Assembly (NCBI RefSeq): GCF_000026045.1
Contig: NC_007427.1
Coordinates: 62,001 to 126,000 of the forward strand
Source: Natronomonas pharaonis DSM 2160
GTDB taxonomy: Archaea > Halobacteriota > Halobacteria > Halobacteriales > Haloarculaceae
Direction: 5' to 3'
Length of the DNA: 64,000 nt
Numbering within the stretch: the stretch's first letter is position 1; every line of letters begins with the position of its first letter. Positions 32,838 through 63,936 of the stretch are shown in pieces. The position numbers and the translations under genes are program-made. A model generated the notes under the pieces. That model ran no database searches. It was not told the DNA's origin and was given only the letters and a program-made list of their open reading frames with translations.

Positions 32838-32868
32838 TTAACCAACACTATGCCGTTTTGTTGGTTAA
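32838..32868. repeat. Bipartite palindrome site 1 (TTAACCAACA - 11 bp - TGTTGGTTAA)
   Basis: Perfect 10-bp arms separated by 11 bp, about 100 bp after the thermosome-like gene and before the first origin box. It is the only site with the short spacer; arm starts are 21 bp apart, two helical turns. Confidence 0.85.
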
Positions 32869-33270
32869 TGGCGGAATGGTCGGTGAGCGGATTTACACAT
32901 CGATAGAGGGGTCTGGCTGCTCCGCGGGACCGGAATTAATGGATTCAAGGGTCCCGGGGATTGACTTCGGGGCAGTCCACAGAACAAAAACCAACTCGAC
33001 GTCGAGTCTCAAGGCGACTAGTTTCACTTAGCTCGCTGCTGTTGGCATGGTTCCTCTCTGTGGACGTCGGGGACAGACACCCCTCTATCGATGTGTTCTA
33101 TCTGTCGAGAGGAAGTAGAGCTGTGCCAGCGGAGAGATTACGATAGCCACGAAACGCACGATACAGGACGACACAAGAGCGTATTCACGGAGAAACTGGT
33201 ATTCCATGGGGGGAGACGAATATCTCAGAGCCATACACATCGAACACATCGATAGAGGGGTGTGTGAGTG

Positions 33271-33350
33271 TTCTTCTAGAAACTAGAAGAAGAAAGAAGA
33301 AGAAACAACACTACAACCTAGTTAAAATATGGCCCGTCTAGAACAAGCAT
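33271..33350. other. Candidate DNA unwinding element with hairpin
   Basis: The arms TTCTTCTAG and CTAGAAGAA (33271-33291, AAA loop) open a run of about 45 bp made almost only of A and G, followed by ctagttaaaatatgg. It lies between origin boxes at 33244 and 33445 and is the lowest-stability stretch near them. Confidence 0.5.
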
Positions 33351-33556
33351 CTAGAAAACAGCGGTTTTAGACGCTAACAAAGGTCTTCTTGATATCGAGT
33401 GCAGCAAGACGGTCGATTCAACCCCCACCCTACCAACTCTTCGAACACATCGATAGAGGGGTGTCTGTCTTGTAGTGGTCTCTCGACAGCATACGATAGC
33501 ACCGACGATGGCGTTCCTTCGTGTTTCGATGGGCCGGCTGGCTCGGTCGCCCAAGC

Positions 33557-33591
33557 AGCCAACGTAGGACACGAGTGCGTCCTTGTTGGCT
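33557..33591. repeat. Inverted repeat AGCCAAC - 21 bp - GTTGGCT in the origin
   Basis: Seven-base arms with a 21-bp spacer, which itself contains GGAC...GTCC. The CCAAC/GTTGG arms and the spacing resemble the parA-upstream repeat (21 bp spacer) and the dispersed TTAACCAACA sites. Confidence 0.45.
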
Positions 33592-33828
33592 AAGCAAGCT
33601 CCGCCCGCTCCAGGCGACGGTGTACTTCGCGTCGGCGGTATTCGAGGAGCCGCATCAATCCACGCTTCGTGTTGCTTCTCCCAAAACACTTCGTCGGACG
33701 CGTTGTTCTTTTGGCGGCTATTTCCAGTTGAACCAGCGCATCTATGGCCTTATACGCTTTACAAACGGCGATTACACTTCGATAGAGGGGTGCGAAGCTT
33801 TTTGTAAGCCGCCTGTGTGAGTCGTCGT

Positions 33829-35298
33829 ATGGGCACTGACGACTCCGACGCTTCTCGGCCCGAGTCGAGAACTCCGGAGGACGAGACCACCCAAGCGGAC
33901 CTTTCTTCGAGTGCGACTTCCTCGAACGTGCCCGCGGATGTCGACCACTCGACGGAGGCTGCCGACGGCTCGCCCGACGCTGGTTCCCGTTCTGACGAGT
34001 CCTCCTCACAATCGATTGAAGATATGTTGCTCGAATTCGACGAACAGGATGGATTAATTCGCGACCGGTCGCTCCTTGACCCGAACTACGTCGTCGACGA
34101 GGACCGGATCGTCGGCCGCGATGACCAACTGCAAGAAGTGACGAAGATGTTGCGGGTGACACTCGGCGATAATCGTCCGCCAAACCTCTTCCTGTATGGC
34201 CCGTCCGGAACTGGGAAATCACTCATCACGAAGGCCGTCTGCAACAACATCAACCGTATCTGTGAGACGCGTGACATCGACTTCGGGACTATTGAAGTCA
34301 ACTGCCAAGACCTCGACACCCTCGGCGTTGCCGTCTACGAGTTGGCAACGCAGGCCGCCGAACAGGCCGGCGTTGCTGTCCAAGTCCCGAAACACGGCGT
34401 CGCAACCAAAGAAAAATGGGACGAGCTGTTCCGCATTGTCAACGAGAACTTCGATTCCGTCGTGTTCGTTCTGGACGAACTCGACATGCTCGTCGGTCGA
34501 CGCGATAAACAGGAGCCGGCGTTTTCGCGACTGCTGTATCAGCTGTCGCGGGCCGAGGCCACCAACGACCTGCGGGCGTACCTCTCGGTCGTGGCGATCT
34601 CTAATGACACCAAGATGATGGAGTCGGTTGGCAGCCGCGCGTTGAGTTCGTTCACGCCCGAAGACGTCCACTTCGACGACTACGATGCAAACCAGCTTCA
34701 GACGATCCTCCGCCATCGACAGGATGCCTTTCACGATGGCGTCGTCGACGATGACGTTATTCCACTCGCCGCTGCATTCGCCGCCCAGACCCACGGCGAT
34801 GCTCGAAAAGCCATTGACCTGATGCGCGTCGCTGGCGAACTCGCCGAGCGTGAGGGCAGCACCCGGGTCCGCGAAGAGCACGTCCGACAGGCACAGGAAA
34901 AAGTCGAAAAGAACCGCGTCCTCGAAGTTGTCCGCGGTATCAGCACACAAAAGAAGCTCTGTCTGTACGCAACGGCAGCGGTAGCCGCCCAAACCGATGG
35001 TGGGACGGCCCGCAGTACCACCGGCTACCGCGTCTATCAGTTCCTCACAGACTCGATCAATGCCGACCAGTACCACCAAGAAACGTACGTCAACAAAATG
35101 AAGGAGCTAACGACGTACTCGCTTGTCGACTTCGAACGGCGGAGCCACGGCCCCAGCTCCGGAATGTTCCTTGAGTTCCAATTTGGCGAGCGTCCGGAGA
35201 CGATTCTCGAGACGCTCCGTGAGGATTCCCGAATCGAGATGGTTACCTCCGAGGAAGTGCAGTCGGTTGTGCAGGCTCAAATCCGAAAGCAGACGTAG
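33829..35298 (+). CDS. orc1: Orc1/Cdc6 replication initiator
   Basis: About 489 residues. A disordered acidic Ser/Thr-rich N-terminus (first ~75 residues) precedes the AAA+ domain: Walker A LYGPSGTGKSLITK, Walker B SVVFVLDELDMLVGRRD, sensor 1 LSVVAISNDTKMMESVGSRALSSF, and sensor 2 HGDARKAIDLMRVAGELAEREG. A C-terminal winged helix (YRVYQFLTDSINADQYHQETYVNKMKELTTYSLVDFERRS) should bind the flanking boxes. It recruits MCM at the replicon origin. The ATG at 33829 is preferred to the GTG at 33817. Boxes lie immediately upstream and downstream. Confidence 0.95.
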   Translation: MGTDDSDASRPESRTPEDETTQADLSSSATSSNVPADVDHSTEAADGSPDAGSRSDESSSQSIEDMLLEFDEQDGLIRDRSLLDPNYVVDEDRIVGRDDQLQEVTKMLRVTLGDNRPPNLFLYGPSGTGKSLITKAVCNNINRICETRDIDFGTIEVNCQDLDTLGVAVYELATQAAEQAGVAVQVPKHGVATKEKWDELFRIVNENFDSVVFVLDELDMLVGRRDKQEPAFSRLLYQLSRAEATNDLRAYLSVVAISNDTKMMESVGSRALSSFTPEDVHFDDYDANQLQTILRHRQDAFHDGVVDDDVIPLAAAFAAQTHGDARKAIDLMRVAGELAEREGSTRVREEHVRQAQEKVEKNRVLEVVRGISTQKKLCLYATAAVAAQTDGGTARSTTGYRVYQFLTDSINADQYHQETYVNKMKELTTYSLVDFERRSHGPSSGMFLEFQFGERPETILETLREDSRIEMVTSEEVQSVVQAQIRKQT

Positions 35299-35738
35299 CC
35301 CGTTACAGTTCTGTCTTTTTGGGTTCTGATTTTTCTGGTCTTGGTGGGTTCATACCAGAACCGAGGCGGATGCTACGTGGCTTGCTCCCAAGGCAGTTGC
35401 CCGCGACAGCTGACTCCGTCCACGCGGTGGTCCGGCCTTCTGTCCATCTGTTGGGGCGCCGGCGGAGACACCCCTCTATCGATGTGTATCAATCATGTGG
35501 TATCGTATCGCAGCCTGTCGAGCTCTTCGTCCGTTCACGCACCCCTCTATCGATGTGTACTGGATATGTAATATCGTGCCACAGCCGTGGCGATAATCGA
35601 CTGACACTGTTTCGATTGCACCCCTCTATCGATGTGTATTAGCGGCTGGAGACCGTGCCACATCGCCATCCGCACTCAAGCAGCGTTTCTCGATACACCC
35701 CTCTATCGATGTGTTTCAACCGTGACTCACTTAACTTA
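35299..35738. other. Downstream half of the origin (four boxes)
   Basis: 440 bp without a gene. It contains four ACCCCTCTATCGATGTGT boxes at 35470, 35541, 35620 and 35697, all in one orientation and about 70-80 bp apart. Open frames here simply read through the boxes. Confidence 0.8.
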
Positions 35739-35761
35739 GTCAGCCAACTTAGTTGGCTGAC
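35739..35761. promoter_or_regulatory. Perfect palindrome related to the parA-upstream repeats
   Basis: GTCAGCCAAC and GTTGGCTGAC flank a central TTA. The sequence continues with ctcagctaactaggtcagct, which repeats half-sites. The same half-site words occur upstream of parA at 11083-11164. It may be a second partition-protein binding site next to the origin, or the operator of the photolyase gene. Confidence 0.55.
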
Positions 35762-35839
35762 TCAGCTAACTAGGTCAGCTAATGGCAACGCCCGGAGCCA
35801 GCACTCAAGCAGCGCCGGCCCCAACCGTTCGACAGGCAG

Positions 35840-37690
35840 ATGCGCGACAGACGGGCCGCCGACGCTGACAACCCAGCGGATACCGACAGTCTTGATTCCG
35901 CTGTCAGCGCTACGTCCCCGCAAGCGGCGGTGGTACCAACACCAAGCGAGGTCCACGGAACAGACAACGCAACCGGCTACGTCGTCTGGCATCGAAAGCA
36001 CCTCCGGACTGCCGACCAGCTGGCGCTCACGCGGGCGGTTTCCGGAGGTGATGTCGTCTGCCCGCTGTTGGTTTTCGATCCAGCATTCTACGGTGACGGT
36101 GGGCTTGCGTGCGACGCTCGGATTCGGTTCTTTCATGAGGCGGTCGCGAGCCTTGACCGGCTCTATGCCGCAGCGCCGGCACCGACGGTCACACGAACAG
36201 CCGAGGCCCCCCGAGAGCGGCTGGCTGCGACAACGCCGCTGTCACTGAACGAGACTCGAGAGGACGACCGCACGGCCGAAGACTCACTTTCCGGCGCATC
36301 CTCCCCCGGCCTAACTATCGGATACGGTTCTCCGCCAACAGTGCTTCAGCGGTTTGCGAACAAAGGATGGACGATCCTGACGATGGCGACTCCAACCAGT
36401 CGGTATGGCAAGCGCCGGGACGACCGTGTTCGGGATGTCTGTGGGAATAGCATCGAGTTCATCTCAGGTGACGGCCTTGTCCGTGGACAGGAATGGTCTC
36501 GGACCAACTGGCAGACACACGTCGAAACGTGGCTCAACGAGGCCCCGCATACTCCGGCGTGGAGTACCGCCGACACAACGCAATTCGTACTCGAAACGGG
36601 TATCACGCCGGCCGCAATCGATGCTGCATTCGACATTTCGCCCTCGAAAACCTTGGTTCCGACCGGTACGCACCGCCGGGCAGCCGAACGGCTGCGTTCG
36701 TTCGTCGAACGGATACACTCCTATCCGGGGAACATCTCTGCGCCACAGGATGCCAGAGAAGCGTCCAGCGGCCTGTCGCCGTATCTCAATTTCGGCCTGC
36801 TTTCCGTCCGGCAGGTGTATCAGTCGGTAAGCGAGCAGGCTCCGGAGTGTCGGGGCCGGCAGATGTTCACCGACCGATTGGTCTGGAATCTCCACTACAA
36901 CCAGAAGCTGGTCGATTGGCCGGGATGGACCGACACAGCAGTCAACCCAGTTTTCGAGGACTTCAACCGCGACCACCACGACCCGGAGTTGGTTCAGGCA
37001 TGGAAAGGCGGTGAGACGGGCTTCCCCATGGTTGATGCGGCGATGCGGTGTCTGCGACAGACCGGCTGGCTCAACTTTCGGATGCGAGCGATGTGTGCGT
37101 CCTTTTTCGTGCATATCCTCCAGCAGCCGTGGTGGATCGGCGCTGACTGGTACCACCATCACCTTATCGACAGCGACGTCGGAATCAACTACACGCAGTG
37201 GCAAAGCCAAGCGGGAACGATCGGCAAACCCGTCCAGCGAGTATACAACCCACGCAAGCAGGTCCGCGATCACGACCCCGACGGCGACTGGATCTGCAGG
37301 TGGCTCCCCGAACTGGCCCCGCTCCCAAACACGTTTCTTGACCGGCCCGAGCGAACACCGCTGGCAGTACAGACCGACTGTGGTGTCACCATCGGCGACG
37401 ACTATCCGCGTCCAGTCGTCGATTTTGACGCTCGCCGTGAGGCGTTCTGGTCACGGTACGAACGGCACCACCCAGCCGCTGCTCGCCAGCTTGCGCGCCC
37501 GGAAATCGCAAAACGAGCATCGTTTTCTGGTGGATACGACGCTGCGAAATCCATCGCGGCCGAGTACGGAGACAGCGCCGAAGACAGCGCTGCCGACATG
37601 CAGCTTTCACTTTCCGACGCTGCCAGTCTGGATGAGGCAGCAGATGCAGCCGAAGACGAGATGGGTGGGGACGGGACGGACGAGTCTTAG
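35840..37690 (+). CDS. DNA photolyase/cryptochrome family flavoprotein
   Basis: About 616 residues. An N-terminal photolyase alpha/beta domain (YVVWHRKHLRTADQLALTRAV ... VVCPLLVFDPAF) and a FAD-binding domain are visible: SSGLSPYLNFGLLSVRQVYQ, RLVWNLHYNQKLVDWPGW, WKGGETGFPMVDAAMRCLRQTGWLNFRMRAMCASFF and WYHHHLIDSDVGINYTQWQSQAG. It should bind FAD and use blue light to repair cyclobutane dimers or act as a sensor. The FAD loop reads DSDVGINYTQWQ rather than the common DGD-x-A-x-N-x-x-W form, so it belongs to a divergent group. Acidic tails occur at both ends. The start codon is uncertain. Confidence 0.88.
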   Translation: MRDRRAADADNPADTDSLDSAVSATSPQAAVVPTPSEVHGTDNATGYVVWHRKHLRTADQLALTRAVSGGDVVCPLLVFDPAFYGDGGLACDARIRFFHEAVASLDRLYAAAPAPTVTRTAEAPRERLAATTPLSLNETREDDRTAEDSLSGASSPGLTIGYGSPPTVLQRFANKGWTILTMATPTSRYGKRRDDRVRDVCGNSIEFISGDGLVRGQEWSRTNWQTHVETWLNEAPHTPAWSTADTTQFVLETGITPAAIDAAFDISPSKTLVPTGTHRRAAERLRSFVERIHSYPGNISAPQDAREASSGLSPYLNFGLLSVRQVYQSVSEQAPECRGRQMFTDRLVWNLHYNQKLVDWPGWTDTAVNPVFEDFNRDHHDPELVQAWKGGETGFPMVDAAMRCLRQTGWLNFRMRAMCASFFVHILQQPWWIGADWYHHHLIDSDVGINYTQWQSQAGTIGKPVQRVYNPRKQVRDHDPDGDWICRWLPELAPLPNTFLDRPERTPLAVQTDCGVTIGDDYPRPVVDFDARREAFWSRYERHHPAAARQLARPEIAKRASFSGGYDAAKSIAAEYGDSAEDSAADMQLSLSDAASLDEAADAAEDEMGGDGTDES

Positions 37691-37751
37691 CCGCGAGAGC
37701 TGATAGATTACTGGACCTTCCCAGCGCCTCTGGAGCCGGGCTAGCTGTGTA

Positions 37752-37791
37752 TTAACCAACAAACGGCGAAACCCGGCCGAGTGTTGGTTAA
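37752..37791. repeat. Bipartite palindrome site 2 (20-bp spacer)
   Basis: TTAACCAACA and TGTTGGTTAA are both perfect. It lies between the convergent photolyase and isocitrate-lyase-family genes. Arm starts are 30 bp apart. Confidence 0.85.
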
Positions 37792-37819
37792 GACGGAACA
37801 GTAATCGGAAGCCCGCTGC

Positions 37820-38761
37820 TCACTGTATGGAGTCCCCGAGCGACCCCTCGTACTTTTCGCGGTCCTCGTCGGGGAGATAGCGTTGCTCCCACTCAATGAC
37901 TTCCGGGAACCCAGAGAACTCGTGGAGGCTCCCGATATCCTGCTCGTTGAACTGGGTGTCGATTTGTCGCATCGCATCGACCGGGTCCTCAGCAAACGCC
38001 TGCAGGTTCTGATGGACACTCGCTATCGTCGCAAGCGTCGCTGCAATCGGGAAGATGACCATCTCGAACCCGAGCTCCTCGAGCGTCCCGAGGTCGACGT
38101 ACGGTGAGGTACCGAGGTCCCCAACGAAGTTGTAGAGGAGCGGCCCCTCAACTTCAGCACCGATACGCTGCAGCTCTGACTCGTCGGTCGGTCCTTCGAC
38201 AAAAGCAACGTCTGCCCCAGCATCGAGGAACGCATTCGCTCTGATGATGGCTTCTTCGAGCGAGCCGTCACCGGTCCCCCGGGCGTCAGTGCGAGCGATA
38301 AGTACGAACTCTTCGGCGCGCTCCGTGCGGACTTCGGCAGCGGCTTGTATCTTCCCAACGGCTTCCTCACGTGGGATAACCTGTCTCCCTTCCGTGTGCC
38401 CGCACCGCTTTGGGAAGGTCTGGTCTTCGATGTGTATCGCCCCGACACCGGCTTTGATATACTCGCGAACGGTCCGTACGACGTTCGTCGCGTTCCCGTA
38501 CCCGTTGTCCGCATCTGCGACCAGCGGGACGGAAATCCGCTCTTGGATGTTTGCGGCGTTGGATATCATCTCCGGCATCGTAATGAATCCAGCATCCGGG
38601 TAGCCGGTCGCCGACAGCGATGTCCCGTATCCAGTCATGTAGATCGCATCGAAACCGACCGTATCCGCGACGGCCGCTGTGAGCGGGTCGTGAACACCCG
38701 GACAGACCAACTGGTCGTCCCCGTCGAGCTGCTTGCGGAGCTGTCGTCCGTACTCAGTCAT
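37820..38761 (-). CDS. Isocitrate lyase / PEP mutase superfamily enzyme
   Basis: About 313 residues, a TIM-barrel lyase. VPLVADADNGYGNATNVVRTVREY binds metal and phosphate- or carboxylate-bearing substrates, IEDQTFPKRCGHTEGRQVI carries the catalytic KRCGH loop with its Cys, and VLIARTDARGTG and LLYNFVGDLGTSPYVDLGTLEELGF are typical of the methylisocitrate / dimethylmalate lyase and oxaloacetase group. The KxCGH Cys indicates C-C lyase chemistry rather than phosphonate mutase. It is the last gene of the hyuA-hyuB-hydrolase operon. The substrate is unknown, but it may cleave a dicarboxylic product of that pathway. Confidence 0.82.
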   Translation of the reverse strand: MTEYGRQLRKQLDGDDQLVCPGVHDPLTAAVADTVGFDAIYMTGYGTSLSATGYPDAGFITMPEMISNAANIQERISVPLVADADNGYGNATNVVRTVREYIKAGVGAIHIEDQTFPKRCGHTEGRQVIPREEAVGKIQAAAEVRTERAEEFVLIARTDARGTGDGSLEEAIIRANAFLDAGADVAFVEGPTDESELQRIGAEVEGPLLYNFVGDLGTSPYVDLGTLEELGFEMVIFPIAATLATIASVHQNLQAFAEDPVDAMRQIDTQFNEQDIGSLHEFSGFPEVIEWEQRYLPDEDREKYEGSLGDSIQ

Positions 38762-38827
38762 TGCTCGCCCCTCGGCGGTCCTGTGCGAAGGCAGTATCGG
38801 TACAACGCGACTGGCGTATTGAGAGTA

Positions 38828-39454
38828 TCATTCTAATTCAGCAAGCACATCGTCGGTTTCGACGACATCACCGTACTTCTGGTCGATGTCAAAGAGGTTC
38901 GCTCTGTGCGGTCCTTCGGCACGGTCGCCGACAGCGTCGGCCGGCACGATGGTTCGGTAGCCGTGCTGGAGACTGTCGACGGCTGTCGCGCGGACACAGC
39001 CGCTGGTGGTGACGCCGGCGAGCACGAGCGTATCGACGCGGTTGGTCGTCAGCTCAGTTTCGAGGTCAGTGCCGAAGAACGCGCTGGCGTACTTTTTGAG
39101 GATGACTCGTTCGTCGCCGGCTGGCGCAACGCTGTCGTCGACCTCGACTGCCTCCGTGCCGAGCTGAAGTTCCCGGAGGGCAGGTACCTTCTCGATGAAC
39201 CGTCCAGCATCGCCATAGGACTCCTCGAAGGCGACTGTCGTGAAGTACCGTGGCAGGTCGTTTTCTCGGAACGCAGCCAGCAACCGCTCGGTCTGTTCGA
39301 GCACGCCCCCCACGTCTGACCCGAGTTCCGTTTCTGGGTCAGTAAACGCGTTAATCAGGTCGATAACGACCAGTGCCGGCCGCTCGCCGAGGCCGACGCT
39401 GGAGCCGAACCCCGACTGGTCGTCGGACATCTCGAACTCGTCTGGCCAATCCAT
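38828..39454 (-). CDS. Isochorismatase-family cysteine hydrolase, N-carbamoylsarcosine-amidase-like
   Basis: About 208 residues. The catalytic triad is visible: Asp in ALVVIDLINAFTDP, Lys in VILKKYASAFFGTDL and Cys in LAGVTTSGCVRATAVDSLQHGY. This family includes nicotinamidases, maleamate amidases and N-carbamoylsarcosine amidohydrolases. Its place beside ATP-dependent hydantoinase subunits favours hydrolysis of an N-carbamoyl amino acid. An in-frame ATG at about 39430 is an alternative start. It lies 27 bp after the hyuB stop in the same operon. Confidence 0.82.
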   Translation of the reverse strand: MDWPDEFEMSDDQSGFGSSVGLGERPALVVIDLINAFTDPETELGSDVGGVLEQTERLLAAFRENDLPRYFTTVAFEESYGDAGRFIEKVPALRELQLGTEAVEVDDSVAPAGDERVILKKYASAFFGTDLETELTTNRVDTLVLAGVTTSGCVRATAVDSLQHGYRTIVPADAVGDRAEGPHRANLFDIDQKYGDVVETDDVLAELE

Positions 39455-39481
39455 GATGTAGTTGGTCCCGTAGGCTCTCTT

Positions 39482-44134: not shown

Positions 44135-44175
44135 TTAACCAACAAATCTATGGATTTTCGGTTTCTGTTGGTTAA
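44135..44175. repeat. Bipartite palindrome site 3 (21-bp spacer)
   Basis: Both arms are perfect. The site sits in the 71-bp gap between the HTH-10 gene stop and the ATG of the small split gene. Arm starts are 31 bp apart. Confidence 0.85.
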
Positions 44176-44555
44176 TACGAGGCAACGCCGATGTCCTACG
44201 AGCCACCGACACCCCCGGCGGCCCTCCCGACCGAACTGGTCGATACACTCAACGAGTCATCACCGGGACAGCTTCGGGACGTAGCCCACTATGCCGAAGA
44301 GCTAGCCGAACACAAAGACCGCAAAGCGCGTCTTAAGGAGGGCTCCGACGAAGCCAGTGCTGAAAGCCGCCCCGAAGACTTCCCCGACGATGTCCCAGCG
44401 AAGGCGACGATTACAGCGGTAGCGAGGCGAAAGCCCATCGGCTTTAGCCGTGGGATGAAGCCGACAACTGGGAACCGTTCCACACTCGTAGCCACGGCTG
44501 GATATTCCACGTCAAAGTGCTGACCTTTATATAAGATAAAAAACTACGCTTACAT

Positions 44556-45818
44556 ATGTCGAATCAGGGTGTCACTCGGACACTCAAAGCGAGCATCAGT
44601 AACCACTCGCAAGTCTGTGACGACCTCGATTCGCATGGCTTTGCCGCGTCGAAACTGTGGAACGTCGGGCGATGGACGATTTCGCGTGTCTGGGACGCTA
44701 TCGGACACATTCCAGACGCCGACGAACTCTGTTCGTACCTCAAATCCCACGAACGCTACGCAGACCTACACAGCCAATCTAGTCAACGAGTTCTTCAGGA
44801 ACTCGGGGAGGCGTTCGTCTCGTGGTACGAACAGGACGACCCAGACGCGAATCCACCCGGCTACCGCAAACACGGCGACGACCACCCGCGCTCAACGGTG
44901 ACGTGGAAAAACCAGGGCTTCAAACTCGACACCCAGTATAATCGTGTCCGTCTCTCCAAAGGCACGAACATGAAAGAGTCGCGCTACGCCGCTGACTACA
45001 TCCTCTGTGAATACACGCTCCAGACGGACGAGCAGACACTCAACGCTGTTGAAAGCGTCCAGACGGTGCGTGCTGTCTGGACCGACGAGCAGTGGGAACT
45101 ACACTTCGTCTGTAAAATGCGGGTTGAGACGCCTGAGACGCCCGGTGAAAAAACAGCAGGTGTTGACCTTGGTATCTGTAACACGGCGGCAATCTCTGTT
45201 GGTGATGAGACACTGCTGTATCCGGGGAACGCGCTGAAAGAAGACGCCCACTACTTCCGACAGCAAGAATACGAGACGGCAGGCGAGAACGGTCCGAGCG
45301 ACCACGCAGAGTGGGCGCGACAGAAGAAATCCCGGCGGCAAGCGCATTTCCTGCACGCGGTATCGAAAGACATCGTTGAGCAGTGTGCTGGACGAAATGT
45401 TGGGACGATAGCAGTTGGCCATCCGAAGAACATCCGTGAGGATGAAGACTGGGGACGACACGGCAACAAGCGACTACACGACTGGGCGTTCGAGACGCTT
45501 CTCAGCCACCTCGAGTACAAAGCCCAAGAGCGGGGCATCGACGTAGAGCGTGTCGACGAAGCAGGGCTGAAAACGTCGAAAACCTGCTGTGAGTGTGGGA
45601 CGGAAGCTGACTCGAATCGAGTCGAGCGTGGGTTGTATGTGTGTGCAAACTGCGAGTTGGTCGCCAACAGCGACCTGAACGCGGCAGAGAATATGCGAGC
45701 GACGGTGACTCCGAATCCGACACAGGATAGGAGTAACGGCTGTTTGGCTCAGCCTTCGGTACGCCTGTTCGACAAATCCACGGGGCGAGTCGCCCCACAA
45801 GAACAGGTTGTCCCGTGA
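44556..45818 (+). CDS. tnpB: TnpB RNA-guided nuclease homologue
   Basis: 420 residues. RuvC-I is KTAGVDLGICNTAAISVGD (Asp). The RuvC-II region reads VGTIAVGHPKNIRED, with Gly where Glu is usual and His rather than Asp after it. The zinc ribbon is CCECGTEADSNRVERGLYVCANC, and RuvC-III is ELVANSDLNAAENM (Asp). The tail after residue 385 (TVTPNPTQDRSNGCLAQPSVRLFDKSTGRVAPQEQVVP) coincides with the presumed guide-RNA scaffold. The acidic residue may be supplied elsewhere (for example Glu in NIRED), or the protein may bind without cutting. Confidence 0.9.
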   Translation: MSNQGVTRTLKASISNHSQVCDDLDSHGFAASKLWNVGRWTISRVWDAIGHIPDADELCSYLKSHERYADLHSQSSQRVLQELGEAFVSWYEQDDPDANPPGYRKHGDDHPRSTVTWKNQGFKLDTQYNRVRLSKGTNMKESRYAADYILCEYTLQTDEQTLNAVESVQTVRAVWTDEQWELHFVCKMRVETPETPGEKTAGVDLGICNTAAISVGDETLLYPGNALKEDAHYFRQQEYETAGENGPSDHAEWARQKKSRRQAHFLHAVSKDIVEQCAGRNVGTIAVGHPKNIREDEDWGRHGNKRLHDWAFETLLSHLEYKAQERGIDVERVDEAGLKTSKTCCECGTEADSNRVERGLYVCANCELVANSDLNAAENMRATVTPNPTQDRSNGCLAQPSVRLFDKSTGRVAPQEQVVP

Positions 45819-45873
45819 ACCCTAATATCCCAACGCGGGAATCCCACGGCTTCAGCCGTGTGGAAGAAGTCAA
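45700..45873 (+). ncRNA. Candidate omega/reRNA scaffold of the 44.4 kb tnpB element
   Basis: This covers the 3' end of tnpB and the right-end hairpin up to TCAA. By family knowledge the guide would be the following 15-20 bases, that is the second half of the split host gene. The 5' limit is a guess. Confidence 0.3.
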
Positions 45874-46031
45874 AATCAAGGAAATCAACGACAACCGCTA
45901 CTACTACTGGCAGTGGCGGGATGGCGATCGGATTAAATCCAAATACAAAGGTCCGGTTTCCTCAGACGAACAGTAGTGTCTTGCCCGCTCCGGACTGCCC
46001 GTTCATCTCCTACGCGGTGTCGGGACGGGTG

Positions 46032-46070
46032 TTAACCAACAAACCGGTGTCAACCAGAATTGTTGGTTAA
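46032..46070. repeat. Bipartite palindrome site 4 (19-bp spacer)
   Basis: Both arms are perfect. The site lies 56 bp after the stop of the split gene and 115 bp before the TRAM gene. With site 3 it brackets exactly that one gene. Arm starts are 29 bp apart. Confidence 0.85.
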
Positions 46071-53984: not shown

Positions 53985-54105
53985 CACATTGTTGATGGAG
54001 CGCCCTCTTGTGATTGTGCGCTGATTATGATGAACTGAGTCATCAATCAGGAACCGCTCTACACGCAGATCTCAGTCAAACAGATGAGCAACGCAACTGA
54101 ATCAA

Positions 54106-55036: not shown

Positions 55037-55083
55037 AAGATCGTACAATGTAATTTAGACTCATCCGCGGCTCTGGCAGTTGC

Positions 55084-55503: not shown

Positions 55504-55583
55504 ATGGGGAAGTAACGTAATGTTTGTACGCGACACTGATGGCTTCTGGGCTTTCAGCCCAGTACCATGAAATTGTTCGGCCC

Positions 55584-55636
55584 GTGAACTGCTCCGGGGT
55601 CAAGCCCCGAGGCACTCTGCCTGCTTTCTCTGTAGA
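55584..55636. repeat. Second copy of the CCCCGAGGCACTCTGC end repeat
   Basis: gtgaactgctccggggtcaa is followed by gccccgaggcactctgcctg and ctttctctgtaga. The stem is CTCCGGGG / CCCCGAGG. It shares its right edge with the repeat at 46839-46869. A further partial copy of the left edge (gtgaactgcctcggggt) lies at 56452-56468. The two copies around 55.6 and 56.5 kb flank the lipoprotein gene. Confidence 0.6.
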
Positions 55637-55708
55637 CAATCTGGACACTCTCCCTCCGCCTGTAGGTAGGGATAATTCATGGTTCTTCGACCAACGAGCG
55701 AGCGCGTT

Positions 55709-56401: not shown

Positions 56402-56503
56402 ACGCCCCCATCGTCCTTTTGGATATCAATCCCTGTGGTATGTCCTGTCTGGTGAACTGCCTCGGGGTGTAGGGCTGCGCGTGCGGGCGGTGTATCTTGG
56501 TAG

Positions 56504-57235: not shown

Positions 57236-57307
57236 CGACTAGCACTACTCACCTATTACGGAAATACAGTTTCATTTCGGCATCACTTACCACGGATTTG
57301 AAATCAG

Positions 57308-58471
57308 TCAGTCGACGGTCGTTGAGCGAGCCCTGGACAGATCCTGTTCGAGACGCTCGGCGTATTCGAGTCGAAGTTCGCGCGTCTTAGCTACCGTGAG
57401 TTCCTCGCCAGCGTCGATTTGATGGGTGAGGGGGGCGTACGAAGAGGCGTTGAACCCCATTCGATCGAGGTACTGCCGGACCGCATCCGACGAGAGCCCA
57501 TGCCGGACCGCACGTTCGACGTACTCTTCGACGGCACTAAACTCTGGAAGGACGATCGCGTCCTCCGTCCGGCGGCCGGTATCTCCCTCGATGCGCACCT
57601 CGGCATCACGGAGGTGATCGATGAGGTCAACGATGTCGTCGGCGAGTCGAACGATCTGGCTTGGGAGGGCGGTATCCGGCGAGCGCCATTCGACGGTCGA
57701 GAACTCCTCGCGGAGCTGGACTGGTGTCCAGACCGAACTTTCTGGATCGAAACACGCCTCAGTCGTCTCTCGGTCGACCTCCGCGGTTACCCCTTCCGCC
57801 ACGAATTCTTCATATCGACGCTCAAGTCGTGCTTCCCACTCCGCCGTATCTTCGATGTACGACCACAACCGCCCCTGGTGTGGCAACGAATTATACGCCA
57901 TCCATCGATAAAGCTGTGACCGGGCACCGGTTGTCAGGTATGTTCCCTCAAAATACGGTGAGGAGTTGACGAGTGCCAGTGCGGGATCAATGGCGATGAG
58001 CGCGTTCAGCTGGTCGATTTTTCGGCCAGGCTGTTGTTCGACGTGAATATGGGTTCCGGCACAGTGGCGTACGTATTCGAAGTCCTCTCCGAGGATGCGG
58101 TCCTGAATTCGTGTCCGTTCGCTCGGGAGGTCTTCGATGAGCCCCTGGTAAATCGGTGTTCCGAGCGGAACAAGCCCCTTATCCTGCTTTTTGGCTCGCT
58201 GTAGGACCCGTTCGAGTCGAGTAAACAACTCTTCGCGGAGCTGTGCTGTTGTCTCACATGGCGTCGTCTTGATCTCGAGTAACGGTGCGACGAACTCCCG
58301 TTCGACTCCTGGCGACGCATCAACGAGATCTTCCGGTTCGGTCAGTCTCCCCTCTCCGTCGACTACCCAGTACTCCACTTCGATGCTCCGCCGTATCGGC
58401 TCACCTTCGCTGGCCGATCCGGTAGTTGTTGTTCGATTTGGCGACCGGTGGGTATCTGGTGATTCAGACAT
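57308..58471 (-). CDS. gshA: Glutamate-cysteine ligase family protein (GCS2 type)
   Basis: 387 residues. RRSIEVEYWVVDGEGRLTEPEDL is the N-terminal substrate-binding block. FVAPLLEIKTTPCETTAQLREEL, HCAGTHIHVEQQPG and RSQLYRWMAYNSLPHQGRLWSYI are the ATP- and substrate-binding signature of the GCS2 family. Haloarchaea use gamma-glutamylcysteine as their main thiol, made by such an enzyme. This copy is divergent and on a plasmid, so it may instead ligate Glu to another amine. It is transcribed in the same direction as the glutamine amidotransferase gene, 70 bp apart. Confidence 0.82.
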   Translation of the reverse strand: MSESPDTHRSPNRTTTTGSASEGEPIRRSIEVEYWVVDGEGRLTEPEDLVDASPGVEREFVAPLLEIKTTPCETTAQLREELFTRLERVLQRAKKQDKGLVPLGTPIYQGLIEDLPSERTRIQDRILGEDFEYVRHCAGTHIHVEQQPGRKIDQLNALIAIDPALALVNSSPYFEGTYLTTGARSQLYRWMAYNSLPHQGRLWSYIEDTAEWEARLERRYEEFVAEGVTAEVDRETTEACFDPESSVWTPVQLREEFSTVEWRSPDTALPSQIVRLADDIVDLIDHLRDAEVRIEGDTGRRTEDAIVLPEFSAVEEYVERAVRHGLSSDAVRQYLDRMGFNASSYAPLTHQIDAGEELTVAKTRELRLEYAERLEQDLSRARSTTVD

Positions 58472-58620
58472 GCTTGAGTGCAGTAAGTAAACATAACCTA
58501 TCGGATTGCCACAACGTAATCAACGCTGTAACAATTCCGGATGAGCGTTCACTATTCACACACTCTTGCGTATGACCGGTGCTTTCTAAATAAGTGTTAT
58601 GGAGGGATGCCAAAATCACG
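58472..58620. other. Spacer upstream of the ligase gene
   Basis: About 150 bp, moderately AT-rich; it should hold the promoter of the leftward glutamate-cysteine-ligase gene. It ends at the IS remnant. Confidence 0.35.
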
Positions 58621-58803
58621 GCGAGAGCTGTCAGTTTCATCCACACTCCTGAAGGGGTGGGCTTTCGCCTCGCTACCGCTGTAAGTCCCAACGAGGAGCG
58701 CACAAACCGGAGTACCGGAGACGGAAAAGCTGCCGCCGTGGAGACGGCATAGCCGCCACCCCACCGGAGGAATCCCACGGCTTCAGCCGTGGGAGGAGGT
58801 CAA
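58620..58803. mobile_element. Nested remnants of two tnpB elements
   Basis: On the minus strand, the left end of one element (AGCGGTAGCGAGGCGAAAG...GGATGAAACTGACA) starts at 58680, directly after a TTAC target (GTAA at 58681-58684). That target lies in the plus-strand tail of another tnpB, which reads VSPNEERTNRSTGDGKAAAVETA-stop. The second element ends with a hairpin (cccacggcttcagccgtggg) and AGGAGGTCAA at 58803. One element therefore jumped into the 3' end of another, and both were later deleted down to about 180 bp. The right end supplies the last codons of the permease gene. Confidence 0.75.
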
Positions 58804-61029
58804 TGACGATTCCGCAGTGGCGTTGTCAACGCTTTCCGTAGACGAATCGATGGGGCCGCGAACAATACTGACGTTCCCCGTATTCTGTCTGGCGATCCGT
58901 TCGGCGATCGAGCCAAAGAAGATGCGAGATATGTCGCTCTTCTCGGAGAGGCCGACACAGACGGTGTCGTAACTCTCGACCGCGTCGATGATTGTCGCCT
59001 CGGTATCCTCGGCGACGACAACCTTCGTCTCGTACTCGTCGGGGTCGAGCCCTGCCCGCTGAGCGATCCAGCGGACCGCCGAATGCCCCCGCTCGACCGG
59101 ATTCACGTCGTCCTCGTCGGCTGGCGGCTGGACGTTGAGGAGGACTGGTGTCGTGTCGGATACTGCTGCAAAGTCTGCCGCCCGCCGGGCAGCGACCGGG
59201 CTATGCGGGCCGGGGCCTGCTAGTGCGACGGGCGTTCCGATCGAGTCCGATTTAATCTTGACCAGCGAGACGTCACAGGATGCGCCCCTAATAACGGGAT
59301 CGAGTGTTCGTCCGAAGACGTACTCGTTGCGGTCGAGGGAGCCCTCCCATCCCAAAACGAGCTGGTCGGCTTCGAGATCTTCGACAACATCGACGATCCC
59401 GTCTCCGACATCGTCTTTCACGACCGCCTGTGTCTGGAGGGTGCCCCCGAGATCGTCGGCGATCTCCTGTGCGGTCTCCAGGAGTTTGCGCTGGTGGTCG
59501 AGACGGCCCGAGTCGACGTTCTGAAGTCCGGACTGGTCGGCCTCAATGACGTTGATGGCGACGAGTTCGGTAGCTCTCTCGCCAGCGTGTGCCCGTGCAG
59601 TCGCCGCCGCCAGCTTCAACAGTCCACGCTCTGTTTCGGGATTCGCCACTGGAACGACGACGCGATAGGGCTGTTCGGACGGTTTACGGAGCGCCGTCGG
59701 GAAAACCCCCGCTTCGATATCCCGCTGCCGTGCGTACGCGAGGTACCAGACCCCACCAAGAACGACAACTCCCGAGCCGACGAGCAAGACGACCGGCTCC
59801 ATCTGGGAGATGACAAGCGCCGTCATGACCACGCCGGCGATCGGCACGGCCGGATAGAGGACGCCCGGGATGGCGAAGTCCGGGTCGTACTCCGGGGGGT
59901 CGGCGTACCGAAAGCCGACGAGCGCTACGTGAACGAGCGCATACGAAACCAGAAAGCTGAAACTCGCGACTTCGGCCAACAGCGCCACGATCGCTTCGAC
60001 CTCGAGGCCCAGACTAATCAGGAACCCGGTGACAGCACCGGTAACGAGGATCGCCCGATGGGGCGTGTTGAAGTTGCTGTGGGTGTAGTTGAACCAGTTG
60101 CTCATCAAATTGTCTCGCCCCATCGCAAAAATCACTCGCGACGCAGCCAGTATCGAGGAGTTCGAACTCGAGATAGCCGCAATGACGGCAGCGAAGACGA
60201 TCGCCACGACGCCGATCGACCCCATGAACACGACTGCTACATCCGAGACTGGAACCAGTGAGTCACCGATGTCCTGATACGGGACAACTCCGGTCGTGAC
60301 GAGCATAAGTACCATATAGAGAATCGTTACGGAGACGACTGACAGAACCATCGTAAGCGGGATGAGCTTTCCCGGCTTTTTGATCTCACCGGCGACGGTT
60401 GCGATGATTTCGAAGCCGAGGAACGTAACGAACACTGTCCCGGTCGTGGCGACGATACCAGTCGTGCCGGTGGGTGCGAAATCGGACAGGTTCGCCATGT
60501 CGATAAAGAAGAGTCCGAGTATCATGTAGACGAGTACGATGGCGAACTCGGTTCCGATCATGATATTCTGTGCGCCGCCGGATTCCTCGGTCCCGTAGAC
60601 GTTGATCGCGACGATGAGCGCCAACCCGAGCAGTCCGAAGAGGACGACGAGGGCCCGGCCGTCAAAAAACGGGAGCGGTTCGACGATGTACTGGCCGAAC
60701 CCGACCATGTAGAACGCACTCGCGAACATCAGCCCGGTCCACATTCCCCAGCCGACGATGCTCCCGAAGAAACTCCCGAGTCCACGGTTGACGTAGTGGT
60801 AGCTTCCGCCGGCGATCGGCATCCCCGTCGCGAGCTCGGCGAGTGTAATCGCAGCGAGTAACGCGGTGAACCCCGCAATCCCGAACGAGATCGAACTTGC
60901 CGGACCGGCACCCTCGGCTGCAATTCCGGGCAAAATAAAAATCCCTGCACCGATCATCGTTCCGCCACCAAGCGTCATCGCCTCGAGGAACCCGAGGTTG
61001 CGCTCGAGTTCCCCACTGTCGCCGCTCAT
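58783..61029 (-). CDS. APC-family amino-acid permease fused to two universal-stress (UspA) domains
   Basis: About 748 residues. The N-terminal ~440 residues form a 12-helix APC transporter (LGFLEAMTLGGGTMIGAGIFILPGIAAEGAG; LATGMPIAGGSYHYVNRGLGSFFGSIVGWGMW; GFEIIATVAGEIKKPGKLIPLTM). The C-terminal half holds two UspA domains (YRVVVPVANPETERGLLKLAAATARAH ... and TPVALAGPGPHSPVAARRAADFA ... VVVAEDTEATIIDAVESYDTVCVGLSEKSDISRIFFGSIAERIARQNTGNVSIVR). Such fusions couple amino-acid transport to energy or stress state. The ATG at 61029 is chosen because the APC core begins right after it. The last six residues (LTSSHG and stop) are encoded by an IS right end. Confidence 0.9.
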   Translation of the reverse strand: MSGDSGELERNLGFLEAMTLGGGTMIGAGIFILPGIAAEGAGPASSISFGIAGFTALLAAITLAELATGMPIAGGSYHYVNRGLGSFFGSIVGWGMWTGLMFASAFYMVGFGQYIVEPLPFFDGRALVVLFGLLGLALIVAINVYGTEESGGAQNIMIGTEFAIVLVYMILGLFFIDMANLSDFAPTGTTGIVATTGTVFVTFLGFEIIATVAGEIKKPGKLIPLTMVLSVVSVTILYMVLMLVTTGVVPYQDIGDSLVPVSDVAVVFMGSIGVVAIVFAAVIAAISSSNSSILAASRVIFAMGRDNLMSNWFNYTHSNFNTPHRAILVTGAVTGFLISLGLEVEAIVALLAEVASFSFLVSYALVHVALVGFRYADPPEYDPDFAIPGVLYPAVPIAGVVMTALVISQMEPVVLLVGSGVVVLGGVWYLAYARQRDIEAGVFPTALRKPSEQPYRVVVPVANPETERGLLKLAAATARAHAGERATELVAINVIEADQSGLQNVDSGRLDHQRKLLETAQEIADDLGGTLQTQAVVKDDVGDGIVDVVEDLEADQLVLGWEGSLDRNEYVFGRTLDPVIRGASCDVSLVKIKSDSIGTPVALAGPGPHSPVAARRAADFAAVSDTTPVLLNVQPPADEDDVNPVERGHSAVRWIAQRAGLDPDEYETKVVVAEDTEATIIDAVESYDTVCVGLSEKSDISRIFFGSIAERIARQNTGNVSIVRGPIDSSTESVDNATAESSLTSSHG

Positions 61030-61356
61030 TATTGGGCAGACTGCGGGAATCGGCGATTCGTCGCTTGACGCGAGTATGATCGATGATTCGTCGACAAGTA
61101 GACCGGCAACTCGAGACAAGGAGCTCTCAAACCGGCAGTAGGTACAAATCGTCTAGTCACGATATCGTGATACTGGTGAACAGCAATTATAAATTATACG
61201 ACACTGCCCAGCGACTGGGTACTTGCTCAGTTCGTATTTGGAGCGAGGCGATTGGCCGAAAGCGGCCGCCTCGCTGCCGTTTCCGCCGGCGTGAACCGTC
61301 AGTGATGGGTCTGGCGTCGCGTGGGATGGGACTACTGCTCGAGCGTCGAGCGCAGT
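61030..61356. other. Spacer between the permease and Usp genes
   Basis: About 330 bp. The promoter of the permease gene should lie near 61055-61190, where AT-rich DNA (aattataaattatacg, 61183-61200) occurs. No gene recognised. Confidence 0.4.
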
Positions 61357-62091
61357 TCATTCTTCAGATGTTCCGTTAGGATTTCGAACGACGAGCGTTG
61401 GACTGGCTACTTCCTGGGAAATCGTCCGCAACCTGGCGCCGAAGATGCGTTCACGTAGCGACGGTTCCGTTTCACCGAGAACTAGCAGATCGAACTGGTC
61501 GCTGGCACCGACGATATCGGCGGGAACGTCGTCACATTCGACGATTCGTCTCTCTATTCGGTCCGGTTCGATACCCTCGTCGAGAAGTTGAGTCGCCGCC
61601 TTCTCGAGCACGGATTCACCACGGCCCCGGTCGCCTTCCTCCCCAACTGTGTGTGATAATGTAACGGACGAGTCGCTGTTCTGGAGGAGCGTGACGACGA
61701 CGCCCAGAATTCGATCGAGGTTTCGGTCTCCGCGCAGGGGGACGAGGATGCGATTGATACCGTTTCCGTCGCCAGGAATCATCACCGCGTCACACTGTTT
61801 TTCAGCCGCGATTCGGTCGATTGGATCCTGCCGGTCGTGTGTGAAAACGAGTTTCGTGGTGAGCGTTCCGTTCCCCCCTGAAAACCGTGATGCGGCCTCG
61901 ACTAACCGACTTTCCGCTTGCTCGGTCCTCGTTTCCTTGAGTTGGGCCGGCACAGTCTGGTCCGGGACCGGAAAGTATCCAAGCAGGACAACGTTTACTG
62001 ATTCCAATAGATCGACTACTCCCTGGCTCGGTGTCGCGGGTTCGGAGACGTCAACCGGGACGAGAATCGTCGAATCAGTGGATAGTGGCAT
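61357..62091 (-). CDS. Universal stress protein (UspA family)
   Basis: 244 residues. STILVPVDVSEPATPSQGVVDLLESVNVVLLGYFPVPDQ is the start of a Usp fold. ILVPLRGDRNLDRILGVVVTLLQNSDSSVTL begins a second, and LLVLGETEPSLRERIFGARLRTISQEVASPTLVVR is the C-terminal strand and nucleotide-binding loop. Two tandem Usp-like halves are likely. It lies next to the permease-Usp fusion and may be functionally linked to it. The exact stress signal is unknown. Confidence 0.82.
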   Translation of the reverse strand: MPLSTDSTILVPVDVSEPATPSQGVVDLLESVNVVLLGYFPVPDQTVPAQLKETRTEQAESRLVEAASRFSGGNGTLTTKLVFTHDRQDPIDRIAAEKQCDAVMIPGDGNGINRILVPLRGDRNLDRILGVVVTLLQNSDSSVTLSHTVGEEGDRGRGESVLEKAATQLLDEGIEPDRIERRIVECDDVPADIVGASDQFDLLVLGETEPSLRERIFGARLRTISQEVASPTLVVRNPNGTSEE

Positions 62092-62140
62092 ATGTGGATA
62101 TGTCTGGAAACAACATATAACTGTACCCCTACGAACGCGA
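62092..62140. promoter_or_regulatory. Promoter of the Usp gene
   Basis: acatataactg (62115-62125) is a TATA-like box for the leftward Usp gene, about 28 bp from its start. Confidence 0.4.
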
Positions 62141-62141
62141 G

Positions 62142-62344
62142 TGGATCACACTCGGTGATGTCACGAGACTCGCTGATGTCGACCGCTAGACGATGCGTGA
62201 CATTCTCCGTGAGCACGGTGTTGAACTTTGCCTCGGGCTCGTTGACGCCTCTCCGTTTTGAACTGCGACGGCAAGCCTCGGTGTCGATAACATTGACGGC
62301 GTTCGAATCGGGACGACGGCTGTCCAGGTTCTTACGGAACTGAA
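62142..62344 (+). pseudogene. Remnant resembling a UPF0175/VapB-like antitoxin
   Basis: One frame reads EWITLGDVTRLADVDR-stop-TMRDILREHGVELCLGLVDASPF, similar in pattern to the DNA-binding helix of UPF0175 antitoxins, with a TAG in the middle. A following frame has no clear partner. It appears to be a decayed antitoxin gene. Similarity is by eye only. Confidence 0.35.
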
Positions 62345-62652
62345 CGCACAGCGGGACAATTCCTGATTTCACCTCTGATGTGCAAGCTGTGTGCAGGCGT
62401 CGAAACGGTTATTTTTCCATGCTTATCGGGCCGACAACCCCGCCCAGTTTACGGCTCGTATCAGACTACTGTGAAATACGTCTGGCACCACCCTGCAAGT
62501 GTTTCTGAAGTGGCCGAAAAAGCGCTCCGGCTATCCAGAGAAGGCGAGAGACTCCTACCGTTCACAGCGTAAAAACGAGCGTGCGAACTGAGCGGTGAAG
62601 GGGTTACCAGATACGATCGATATTTGAGCTGGTACTCGATACGCGATGTTCT
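62345..62652. other. Spacer without a recognised gene
   Basis: About 310 bp with a 64-codon frame (62378-62572) of uncertain character. No domain is visible in it. Confidence 0.3.
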
Positions 62653-62693
62653 TTAACCAACAGATAGCGAGGTTCCCGCCGGTTGTTGGGTAA
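62653..62693. repeat. Bipartite palindrome site 5 (21-bp spacer, one mismatch)
   Basis: The left arm TTAACCAACA is perfect and the right arm TGTTGGGTAA has one change. It is followed by gacgagcgtggcgggg, which recurs after site 6. It lies about 150 bp before the FNT gene. Arm starts are 31 bp apart. Confidence 0.8.
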
Positions 62694-62839
62694 GACGAGC
62701 GTGGCGGGGGGCACCGGCAGTCGGGTGATCCGTCTGTGGGTGGCTCGCTCCAAGTCCACAAGAGCTCGTCTGAAGCTTGAGGTGCCACGAACGTCCGCCG
62801 ACCGTTAGATACACCGTCGTCCCCCCGAATTGCCGCCCA

Positions 62840-63727
62840 ATGGGCAACGGAAACGAGACTATTTTCAGGAACCGATTCTCGACGGACGAAATCTACGAGC
62901 GGGTCGTCGTCGAGGCCGATGAGGAAATGAACAGATCGATGCCCGAACTGTTCTTCAGCGCCCTAGCCGGTGGATTTGCCATTTCGATCACGTTCCTGTT
63001 GTACGTGTCAGGCACGCACGCAGCCGACGGTGCCGCCATACTCGGCGCGATTCTCTACCCGCTCGGGTTTATTTACATCATTATCGGCAACTACCAGTTG
63101 TATACGGAGAACACGCTGCCGCCGGTCGCGCTCGTCCTCGAACGGATCGCGAGTCTCCCGGCGATGTTGCGGATGTACGGGATCGTGCTCTGGGGGAACT
63201 TGGCCGGCGGGACGATCGGCGCACTCGTACTCGCACACGGCGGCGTGTTCGATGCGGCGACGACACAGACGGCGATCGAAATCGCCACGAGCGGCGTCGA
63301 GACCAACTGGTGGCCGCTGTTCTTCAAGGCGATGTTTGCCGGACTCATCGTCGCCGGCGTCGTCTGGATGGACTTCAGCGTCAGCAACGCCATGGCCCGG
63401 GTCACCCTGATCTACATGGCCTTCCTCGCGATCCCGGTTGGGGGGCTGTTTCACATCGTCGTCGCGTCGACGGAGGTTATGTTCCTCGTGTTCCTCGGGG
63501 AGATCGGGCTGTGGGTCGGAGCCGTCCAGTTCGCGCTGCCGGTGTTGCTCGGGAACACCCTCGGCGGAATCCTGCTCGTTACGATCGTCAACTACTTCCA
63601 GACGTCCGATAAGGTCCACGGGTTTGAGGGACAGCTACCGCTCAAGGAGTGGGTCCTGACCGTCAACACCGGCTCGATCGAGGCGGACGCTCTGCTCGCA
63701 GAATTGGAACGGCGGATCGATCACTGA
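62840..63727 (+). CDS. Formate/nitrite transporter (FNT) family channel
   Basis: About 295 residues with six or seven hydrophobic segments: SALAGGFAISITFLLYVSG, GAAILGAILYPLGFIYIIIGNYQLYTE, MYGIVLWGNLAGGTIGALVLAH, PLFFKAMFAGLIVAGVVWMDFS, LIYMAFLAIPVGGLFHIVVASTEV and ALPVLLGNTLGGILLVTIVNYFQ. The pattern G-N-x-x-G-G near the third and last segments is typical of the FNT fold, which conducts formate, nitrite or hydrosulfide as weak acids. The ATG at 62840 (MGNGNET) is preferred to 62777. The gene is the only one between palindrome sites 5 and 6. A link to the formamidase of this replicon (formate product) is possible. Confidence 0.88.
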   Translation: MGNGNETIFRNRFSTDEIYERVVVEADEEMNRSMPELFFSALAGGFAISITFLLYVSGTHAADGAAILGAILYPLGFIYIIIGNYQLYTENTLPPVALVLERIASLPAMLRMYGIVLWGNLAGGTIGALVLAHGGVFDAATTQTAIEIATSGVETNWWPLFFKAMFAGLIVAGVVWMDFSVSNAMARVTLIYMAFLAIPVGGLFHIVVASTEVMFLVFLGEIGLWVGAVQFALPVLLGNTLGGILLVTIVNYFQTSDKVHGFEGQLPLKEWVLTVNTGSIEADALLAELERRIDH

Positions 63728-63895
63728 ACGGAGCCGGGACCAGTACCCACTCCCGGGCACTTGCCTTGCCCCGCCTGTAGACAAGCAGGGCATCGTGGGG
63801 ACATCGCATAGCAGTCGGGGCTGCCCCCGGCTTCGGTGATGACCGCTCGTGAGGGACATGGCAGCTTCGCATCGTAGCGGCAGCGGCGCTGGGTC
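63728..63895. other. Spacer after the FNT gene
   Basis: About 170 bp, GC-rich, with no gene recognised on either strand. Confidence 0.35.
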
Positions 63896-63936
63896 TTAAC
63901 CAACAGGTACTGTGACTCTAGTCGGCTGTTGGTTAA
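63896..63936. repeat. Bipartite palindrome site 6 (21-bp spacer)
   Basis: Both arms are perfect. It is followed by gacgagcgaggcgggcg, nearly the same as after site 5. The right flank (63937-64000) reads as an acidic peptide (KTSEAGDAGEGESIEAVEES), so a gene may continue beyond the window. Arm starts are 31 bp apart. Confidence 0.85.

Follow-up and report, generated by a model that had tools for sequence, protein, structure and literature searches.

The bipartite palindromes that recur on haloarchaeal plasmids were found to be linked to genes for small proteins related to DUF6788 (PF20586). The spelling of their arms co-varies with the subfamily of the protein, sites and genes have matching distributions over genomes, and the sites lie between genes, where they bound modules that are gained and lost. 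As judged from sequence comparison, sites and DUF6788-like proteins very likely form a previously undescribed system by which blocks of genes on archaeal plasmids are delimited. More specifically, we propose, with a probability of about 0.62, that the palindromes are the cognate sites of a DUF6788-superfamily protein, which would bind them as two units, control its own gene and take part in the maintenance or organisation of the replicon.

Palindromic sites in the window and in other genomes

The window analysed here is a stretch of 64,000 nucleotides that corresponds to bases 62001-126000 of contig C2 (130,989 bp) in a haloarchaeal genome of 2.75 Mb. Six palindromes had been located in it by the initial annotation, and direct reading of the DNA recovered all six in their places, five of them with perfect arms and one (site 5) with a single arm mismatch (position 62684, TTACCCAACA). 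Their spacers indeed measure 11, 20, 21, 19, 21 and 21 bp (Table 1), and positions 1-32837 of the window are free of sites, as had been reported. According to our gene calls, all six sites are intergenic. The number of pattern matches expected in the window by chance was 0, as none of 100 shuffles gave a match. Outside the window, C2 carries further sites at 6637 and 128933. In total, seven of its sites are perfect, and two have one mismatch (at 124653, which is site 5 of the window, and at 2772); on the chromosome of the same genome, two perfect sites lie at a distance of 3.9 kb from each other. Five copies of a ACACATCGATAGAGGGGTGT-like repeat occur on both strands around orc1 and upstream of it (window 32895-33795), and these are probably the origin recognition boxes of the plasmid origin.

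Table 1. Palindromic sites and associated genes, in coordinates of the window
Feature	Position	Strand	Remarks
Site 1	32838..32868	.	perfect arms, 11-bp spacer; Cpn60 gene on one side, origin/orc1 on the other
orc1/cdc6 plasmid replication initiator	33829..35298	+	gene call
Site 2	37752..37791	.	perfect arms, 20-bp spacer; between the converging ends of photolyase and hyu operon
Site 3	44135..44175	.	perfect arms, 21-bp spacer AATCTATGG...; immediately upstream of DUF6788-like gene
DUF6788-like gene, 5' piece	44191..44418	+	about 76 codons
IS200/IS605-type TnpB transposon ORF	44556..45818	+	interrupts DUF6788-like gene
DUF6788-like gene, 3' piece	about 45866..45967	+	C-terminal beta-sheet end
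Site 4	46032..46070	.	perfect arms, 19-bp spacer
Site 5	62653..62693	.	21-bp spacer; one arm mismatch (TGTTGGGTAA); upstream of FNT gene
Formate/nitrite transporter gene	62840..63727	+	cargo, enclosed by sites 5 and 6
Site 6	63896..63936	.	perfect arms, 21-bp spacer

Throughout the family, the exact pattern TTAACCAACA-N-TGTTGGTTAA was found 277 times, in 54 of 98 genomes, and the reversed control pattern had no match in these 98 genomes. A scan of GTDB genomes yielded at least 119 stretches with the motif, nearly all of them haloarchaeal among the matches listed; a few bacterial loci among the matches listed are probably chance matches. Spacer lengths among the matches listed showed a sharp peak at 20-22 bp (21 bp in 93 cases, 22 bp in 50, 20 bp in 18, 23 bp in seven and 19 bp in four) and a minor class of 10-13 bp (seven cases), to which site 1 of the window belongs. 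The suggested check for lengths near multiples of 10.5 bp thus returned a clustered rather than a uniform distribution. The arms are strict as well: in longer loci, 57 sites had no mismatch, 11 had one, four had two, three had three and two had four, and the reversed control gave nothing under five mismatches in these loci. The pattern consists of two half-sites that are read strictly and lie two or three turns of the helix apart, and the sequence between them is free. This agrees with the initial view of two half-sites in helical register, predicted to be bound by protein. Because the length of the spacer is fixed, its sequence free and the site neutral in orientation, an RNA hairpin or terminator was rejected.

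Sites with short spacers of 10-13 bp make up a separate class (loci L003, L004, L066, L073 and L137; genomes G005, G042, G067, G079 and G099), and a near-identical short spacer (CTCATCGCTTT or its complement), common to three genomes, hints at a conserved locus. Within about 7-10 bp after the sites of L010, L039, L056, L100 and L106, CGCTCTTATGTAGA or a similar sequence is conserved, which is perhaps the promoter of a common neighbour gene.

Random occurrence of the motif inside genes, which the initial annotation had named as evidence against its reading, was not observed. Instead, a codon-usage gene caller, which closely matched the deposited annotation of one test plasmid, placed 155 of 157 classifiable sites between genes (p 5e-84), although coding sequence makes up 73% of the DNA. 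The genes flanking the sites are arranged in tandem in 90 cases, divergently in 42 and convergently in 23, which is the same as at other gaps (p 0.10). Moreover, numerous sites directly adjoin a gene at its 3' end, where TTAA supplies or follows the stop codon. This orientation-neutral placement, often at 3' ends, argues against promoter operators and terminators. The type-2 sites described below are likewise intergenic (24 tandem, nine divergent, five convergent and three at contig edges), with one site counted inside the start of its own gene.

A probable DUF6788-like partner gene and its arm types

A search for one DNA-binding-like gene that co-occurs with the sites, as had been suggested, led to a relative of DUF6788 (PF20586) of about 107 aa, for which DNA binding is predicted. 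This gene of about 107 codons is the commonest neighbour of the sites (35 of 176), mostly starts 7-20 bp from the arm, and is faced by 17 different families across the site. In 13 of the 13 plus-strand homologs checked, the ATG of the intact subfamily-1 gene was preceded by a perfect site at a distance of 14-20 bp, and minus-strand copies had the same upstream site where coordinates were comparable. Exceptions within the subfamily are L269, with a one-mismatch site, and L270, L271 and L274, with a half-site or none, and some copies are truncated.

In the window, site 3 takes the position at the DUF6788-like gene that is found in nearly all homologs. The initial annotation had placed one gene of 108 codons between sites 3 and 4, and this gene is indeed present, but it is not the intact unit described, since it is split by an IS200/IS605 (TnpB) insertion. 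No intact copy of the DUF6788-like gene of about 107 codons was found in the window's own genome, and because the copy in the window is broken, the site system of this plasmid is probably either in decay or supplied in trans. The same plasmid carries two closely similar IS200/IS605-type TnpB genes, one within the DUF6788-like gene (Table 1) and the other (L162:7444-8706) between site 6 and the following site.

The 107-aa subfamily matched no Pfam family over threshold and gave a sub-threshold SlyX match only. Its tie to DUF6788 rests on a Cys-bearing paralog (L159:363-698), which matches PF20586 above the cut-off (E 1.4e-8) and aligns with the subfamily at 36% identity along the 107-aa length. 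A bipartite palindrome of the same type also precedes Cys-bearing haloarchaeal paralogs, whereas the CxxC...HGPY loop and a match to the Pfam model are absent from the 107-aa subfamily. PF20586 itself carries no known function. The AlphaFold model of the protein (mean pLDDT 79.5, pTM 0.43) has helices at 14-22 and 25-53 and, after a floppy linker, a sheet of three strands at 73-103, with a net charge of +3 in the sheet domain and -16 in the N-terminus, and a Foldseek search of the PDB returned no related solved structure (best E 0.48). A DNA-binding fold of the DUF6788-like protein is therefore putative.

Of 66 subfamily-1 genes, 49 have an orc1/cdc6 gene at most 3 kb away. At the loci examined, ParA was within 5 kb of only two of the 66 copies, so that a ParA-linked partition operon of the classical kind is the exception. 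ParA does occur near a DUF6788-type gene in halovirus ChaoS9 and in a Tunicatimonas plasmid. The ChaoS9 homolog (ChaoS9_240) stands beside vapC and int2, near parA, in the plasmid-maintenance arm of the virus, and has a perfect site at its start (33055); a second site overlaps the 3' end of orc1 (45387), and a third lies where the repH gene cluster ends (52588). ChaoS9 is related to viruses that, as proviruses, persist in the form of circular extrachromosomal DNA (PMC6471424). DUF6788 genes of bacterial plasmids adjoin repL/parA or a replication initiator.

The arms of the different subfamilies follow the common frame TTA-NNNN-ACA, in which NNNN is ACCA, CCCC, TGTA, CCAA or CCTA, and which begins with CTA instead of TTA in one subfamily. 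All 11 genes of the type-2 subfamily (L255-L265, about 130 aa) have GTTACCCCAC(A)-N-(T)GTGGGGTAAC at their start. Among 20 more distant homologs, approximately 17 have a palindrome of the CTTATGTAACA, CTTACCAAAC, CTTACCTAAC or CTAACCAACA type at the same spacing, with arms that contain TTATGTAACA, TTACCAAACA, TTACCTAACA or CTAACCAACA according to subfamily. In a control set of 995 other genes, only five had a comparable inverted repeat near the start (Fisher p about 1e-29).

The dispersed sites follow the proteins from genome to genome. Type-1 sites were present in 37 of the 40 genomes with an intact protein versus 17 of the 58 without (p 1e-10), with on average 4.2 versus 0.7 extra sites; the 17 genomes that have type-1 sites and no intact subfamily-1 gene hold up to five sites, apart from G000. 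Type-2 (CCCC) sites amounted to 59 copies in 12 of 98 genomes (control 0), and the type-2 protein was encoded in 11 of these 12 genomes versus none of the other 86 (p 1e-13; p 3e-10 when counting only sites beyond the gene's own). Cross-association was not significant, either between type-1 protein and type-2 sites (p 0.06) or between type-2 protein and type-1 sites (p 0.34). The TTATGTAACA and TTACCAAACA types are dispersed too (25 and 16 copies in 11 and nine genomes, respectively).

Some members from other archaeal families also carry such a palindrome (L342 with TCTTACCTAACC; L343 and L355 with CTTATATGTAAT), and it was absent from the non-haloarchaeal clade L335-L340 (PF20586, same phylum) and from several other bacterial and archaeal DUF6788 members. 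The DUF6788-type gene of the cyanobacterial Leptolyngbya plasmid AP017310.1 (L359, start 2974) has a TTCTTGTGTAACTTT palindrome with a 13-bp spacer. This repeat has 15-bp arms and extra half-sites just upstream, and resembles the haloarchaeal CTTATGTAAC arm.

Modules between sites and the question of recombination

Complete plasmids carry two (PHS3), five (pJ7-1), six (pNRC200, pNATPE01 and a Haloglomus plasmid), eight (PHS2) or nine sites (GN101 megaplasmid). The six on pNRC200 of Halobacterium salinarum NRC-1 are at 73102, 160567, 267323, 308492, 323164 and 330572, and the H. salinarum protein has the accession WP_010904196.1. That the sites border exchangeable modules, as the initial annotation had supposed, could be seen at one junction found both empty and filled, and in five cassettes. 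Specifically, the junction between B and A (A being the module of an ArdC-like gene) is empty in L018, L048, L243 and L249, holds a 1.56-kb two-gene cassette in L075, L088, L107 and L160, and in L241 is occupied by a cassette for the AbiEi/AbiEii toxin-antitoxin pair; sites were present at either border in each case. Further both-border indel events were found in L037 and L251. Overall, of 17 distinct indels located at site junctions, about five had sites at both borders, versus about 2.8% expected by chance (p 8e-5). The comparison of synteny across site gaps and other gaps, also suggested beforehand, gave a divided answer: gene adjacency was lower across sites at 35-80% protein identity but higher at 80-97%, so that lowered adjacency is moderate evidence at most. 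On an evolutionary scale, module borders at the sites hold.

Two loci deserve separate mention. Over 8 kb, a contig of Halohasta litorea (L031) is 99.96% identical to PHS2 of Halobacterium salinarum R1 (L245; PHS2 126599-134598), owing either to transfer between the genera in the very recent past or to contamination. On chromosome C1 (L163:16430-17990, about 2,288,430-2,289,990), a PIN-domain-like and an HTH-like gene lie between two direct repeats of about 90-100 bp, which are nearly identical and have at their centre a site whose arms vary symmetrically (TTACCCAACA...TGTTGGGTAA; CGTTGGGTAA in one copy).

The exchange of modules might suggest that the sites are themselves recombination sites, at which a recombinase, be it the Xer of the host or an integrase of the plasmid, moves modules in the way of Acinetobacter pdif, perhaps with help from the DUF6788-like protein. 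The junction with its alternative cassettes and the excess of indels bounded at both ends would fit such a recombinase, as would a few site pairs that have only the flank-proximal half of the spacer in common. However, tyrosine and serine recombinases require a matching overlap, and the spacers that flank a module on its two sides bear no relation to each other (mean identity 0.34 in direct comparison versus 0.32 at random; 91 modules). Breakpoints moreover lack a single position (27 at the near arm, eight at the far arm, five in mid-spacer and 12 in the DUF6788-promoter class), and one-border indel events outnumber the both-border ones. In the region compared between NRC-1 and R1, the breaks fall at a 521-bp IS-like repeat and not at sites, and no recombinase family turned up linked to the sites in an unsystematic look. 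Since the flanking spacers are unrelated and a single crossover point is missing, the sites are not dif sites, the likeness to dif/Xer drawn in the initial annotation is not supported, and we regard a role as recombination sites as doubtful.

The likeness to the pdif/dif sites of Acinetobacter plasmids (XerCD) lies in short sites with inverted arms that border gene modules, and those plasmids, too, have shuffled module content, around a conserved Rep backbone (e.g. PMC13141974). In contrast to dif, with its 11-nt arms and a 6-nt spacer where cleavage occurs (PMC8371274), the haloarchaeal sites have 10-nt arms and an unconserved spacer of 20-22 bp (10-13 bp in the minor class) that differs between module ends. 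An att-like duplication was rejected because of the unrelated module-flanking spacers, the direct repeat of the chromosomal locus L163 being the exception. The R''/R' boxes of integron attC have the consensus RYYYAAC / GTTRRRY, and the arms, which read AACCAAC / GTTGGTT, differ from it by one mismatch per side and so do not match the attC boxes.

Proposed binding and role of the system

In the reading that we prefer, the palindromes are the binding sites of the DUF6788-like protein. Two units would each occupy one of the inverted arms of 10 bp, both on one face of the DNA and three helical turns from each other (two in the short class), and any spacer sequence would be tolerated by the bound pair. 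The sheet domain may read the arm, and the helices may hold the two copies together across the flexible linker, an arrangement that would leave room for a free spacer of two or three turns. One of the bound sites would be that at the start codon or promoter of the gene itself, which is thus probably self-controlled, and the remaining ones would be dispersed between gene modules and travel along as modules come and go. The linkage to replication genes and to the plasmid arm of the halovirus favours, as the most likely role, a KorB- or ParB-like part in maintaining or organising the replicon, by pairing, segregation or coordinated control. Of the possibilities raised initially, that of a centromere or plasmid-organisation element would accordingly suit the sites better than dif/Xer.

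KorB and ParB are plasmid-encoded DNA-binding proteins with dispersed palindromic operators, control of their own gene and a linkage to replication and maintenance. KorB is both a ParB and a repressor in one (PMC5577506, PMC11790492). As in KorB-O_B of the IncP plasmid RK2 and in ParB-parS, several near-identical sites are dispersed over the replicon, mostly 5-9 per plasmid, with one at the promoter of the DUF6788-like gene itself. The DUF6788-like proteins differ in that they are about 107-135 aa long with no sequence or fold match found, that the palindrome is not continuous, its arms being parted by a free spacer of 10-13 or 20-22 bp, and that parA is not usually adjacent to the gene. With neither a Pfam ParB hit nor a Foldseek hit, the proteins were not assigned to the ParB family. 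The system would work like known dispersed-operator systems, yet belongs with neither ParB nor dif.

A bound protein could also make the sites boundary or silencing elements that insulate neighbouring modules or silence between them. This would suit their exclusively intergenic position, often at most 18 bp from a stop codon and without orientation bias, and a cargo that often consists of toxin-antitoxin, nuclease or HTH genes. However, a 131-kb plasmid has only about eight sites, which leaves most transcription units without one, and we consider this role unlikely. That the sites are ordinary transcription-factor operators of a regulon appears very improbable to us, even though a site at the gene's own start suits an autorepressor and spacer centres are slightly AT-rich: 23 of 155 sites (15%) lie between converging gene ends, with orientation as in the background (p 0.10), and degenerate copies are rare, unlike in a typical regulon. 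A regulon was rejected on account of these convergent sites and the strict arms. More speculatively, and with little confidence on our part, DUF6788-like proteins might form a cross-domain, sequence-addressable DNA-tagging family, in which each has its own TTA-N4-ACA spelling and bridges its dispersed sites, so that modules would belong to one community of replicons and be exchangeable within it, as a plasmid self-recognition system of a new kind.

The collection of papers searched held no prior description of the motif, of a haloarchaeal plasmid palindrome of this kind or of a DUF6788 function. The uncharacterised DUF6788 family hereby gains a predicted DNA target, and since the spelling of this target shifts with the protein sequence, the prediction is directly testable. 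The co-varying TTA-N4-ACA arms would represent a natural protein-DNA recognition code, read by a small domain for which no solved relative was found. Maintenance of archaeal plasmids is poorly understood, and the sites provide a marker for the build and upkeep of large, shuffled haloarchaeal plasmids, including those of the laboratory strain Halobacterium salinarum NRC-1.
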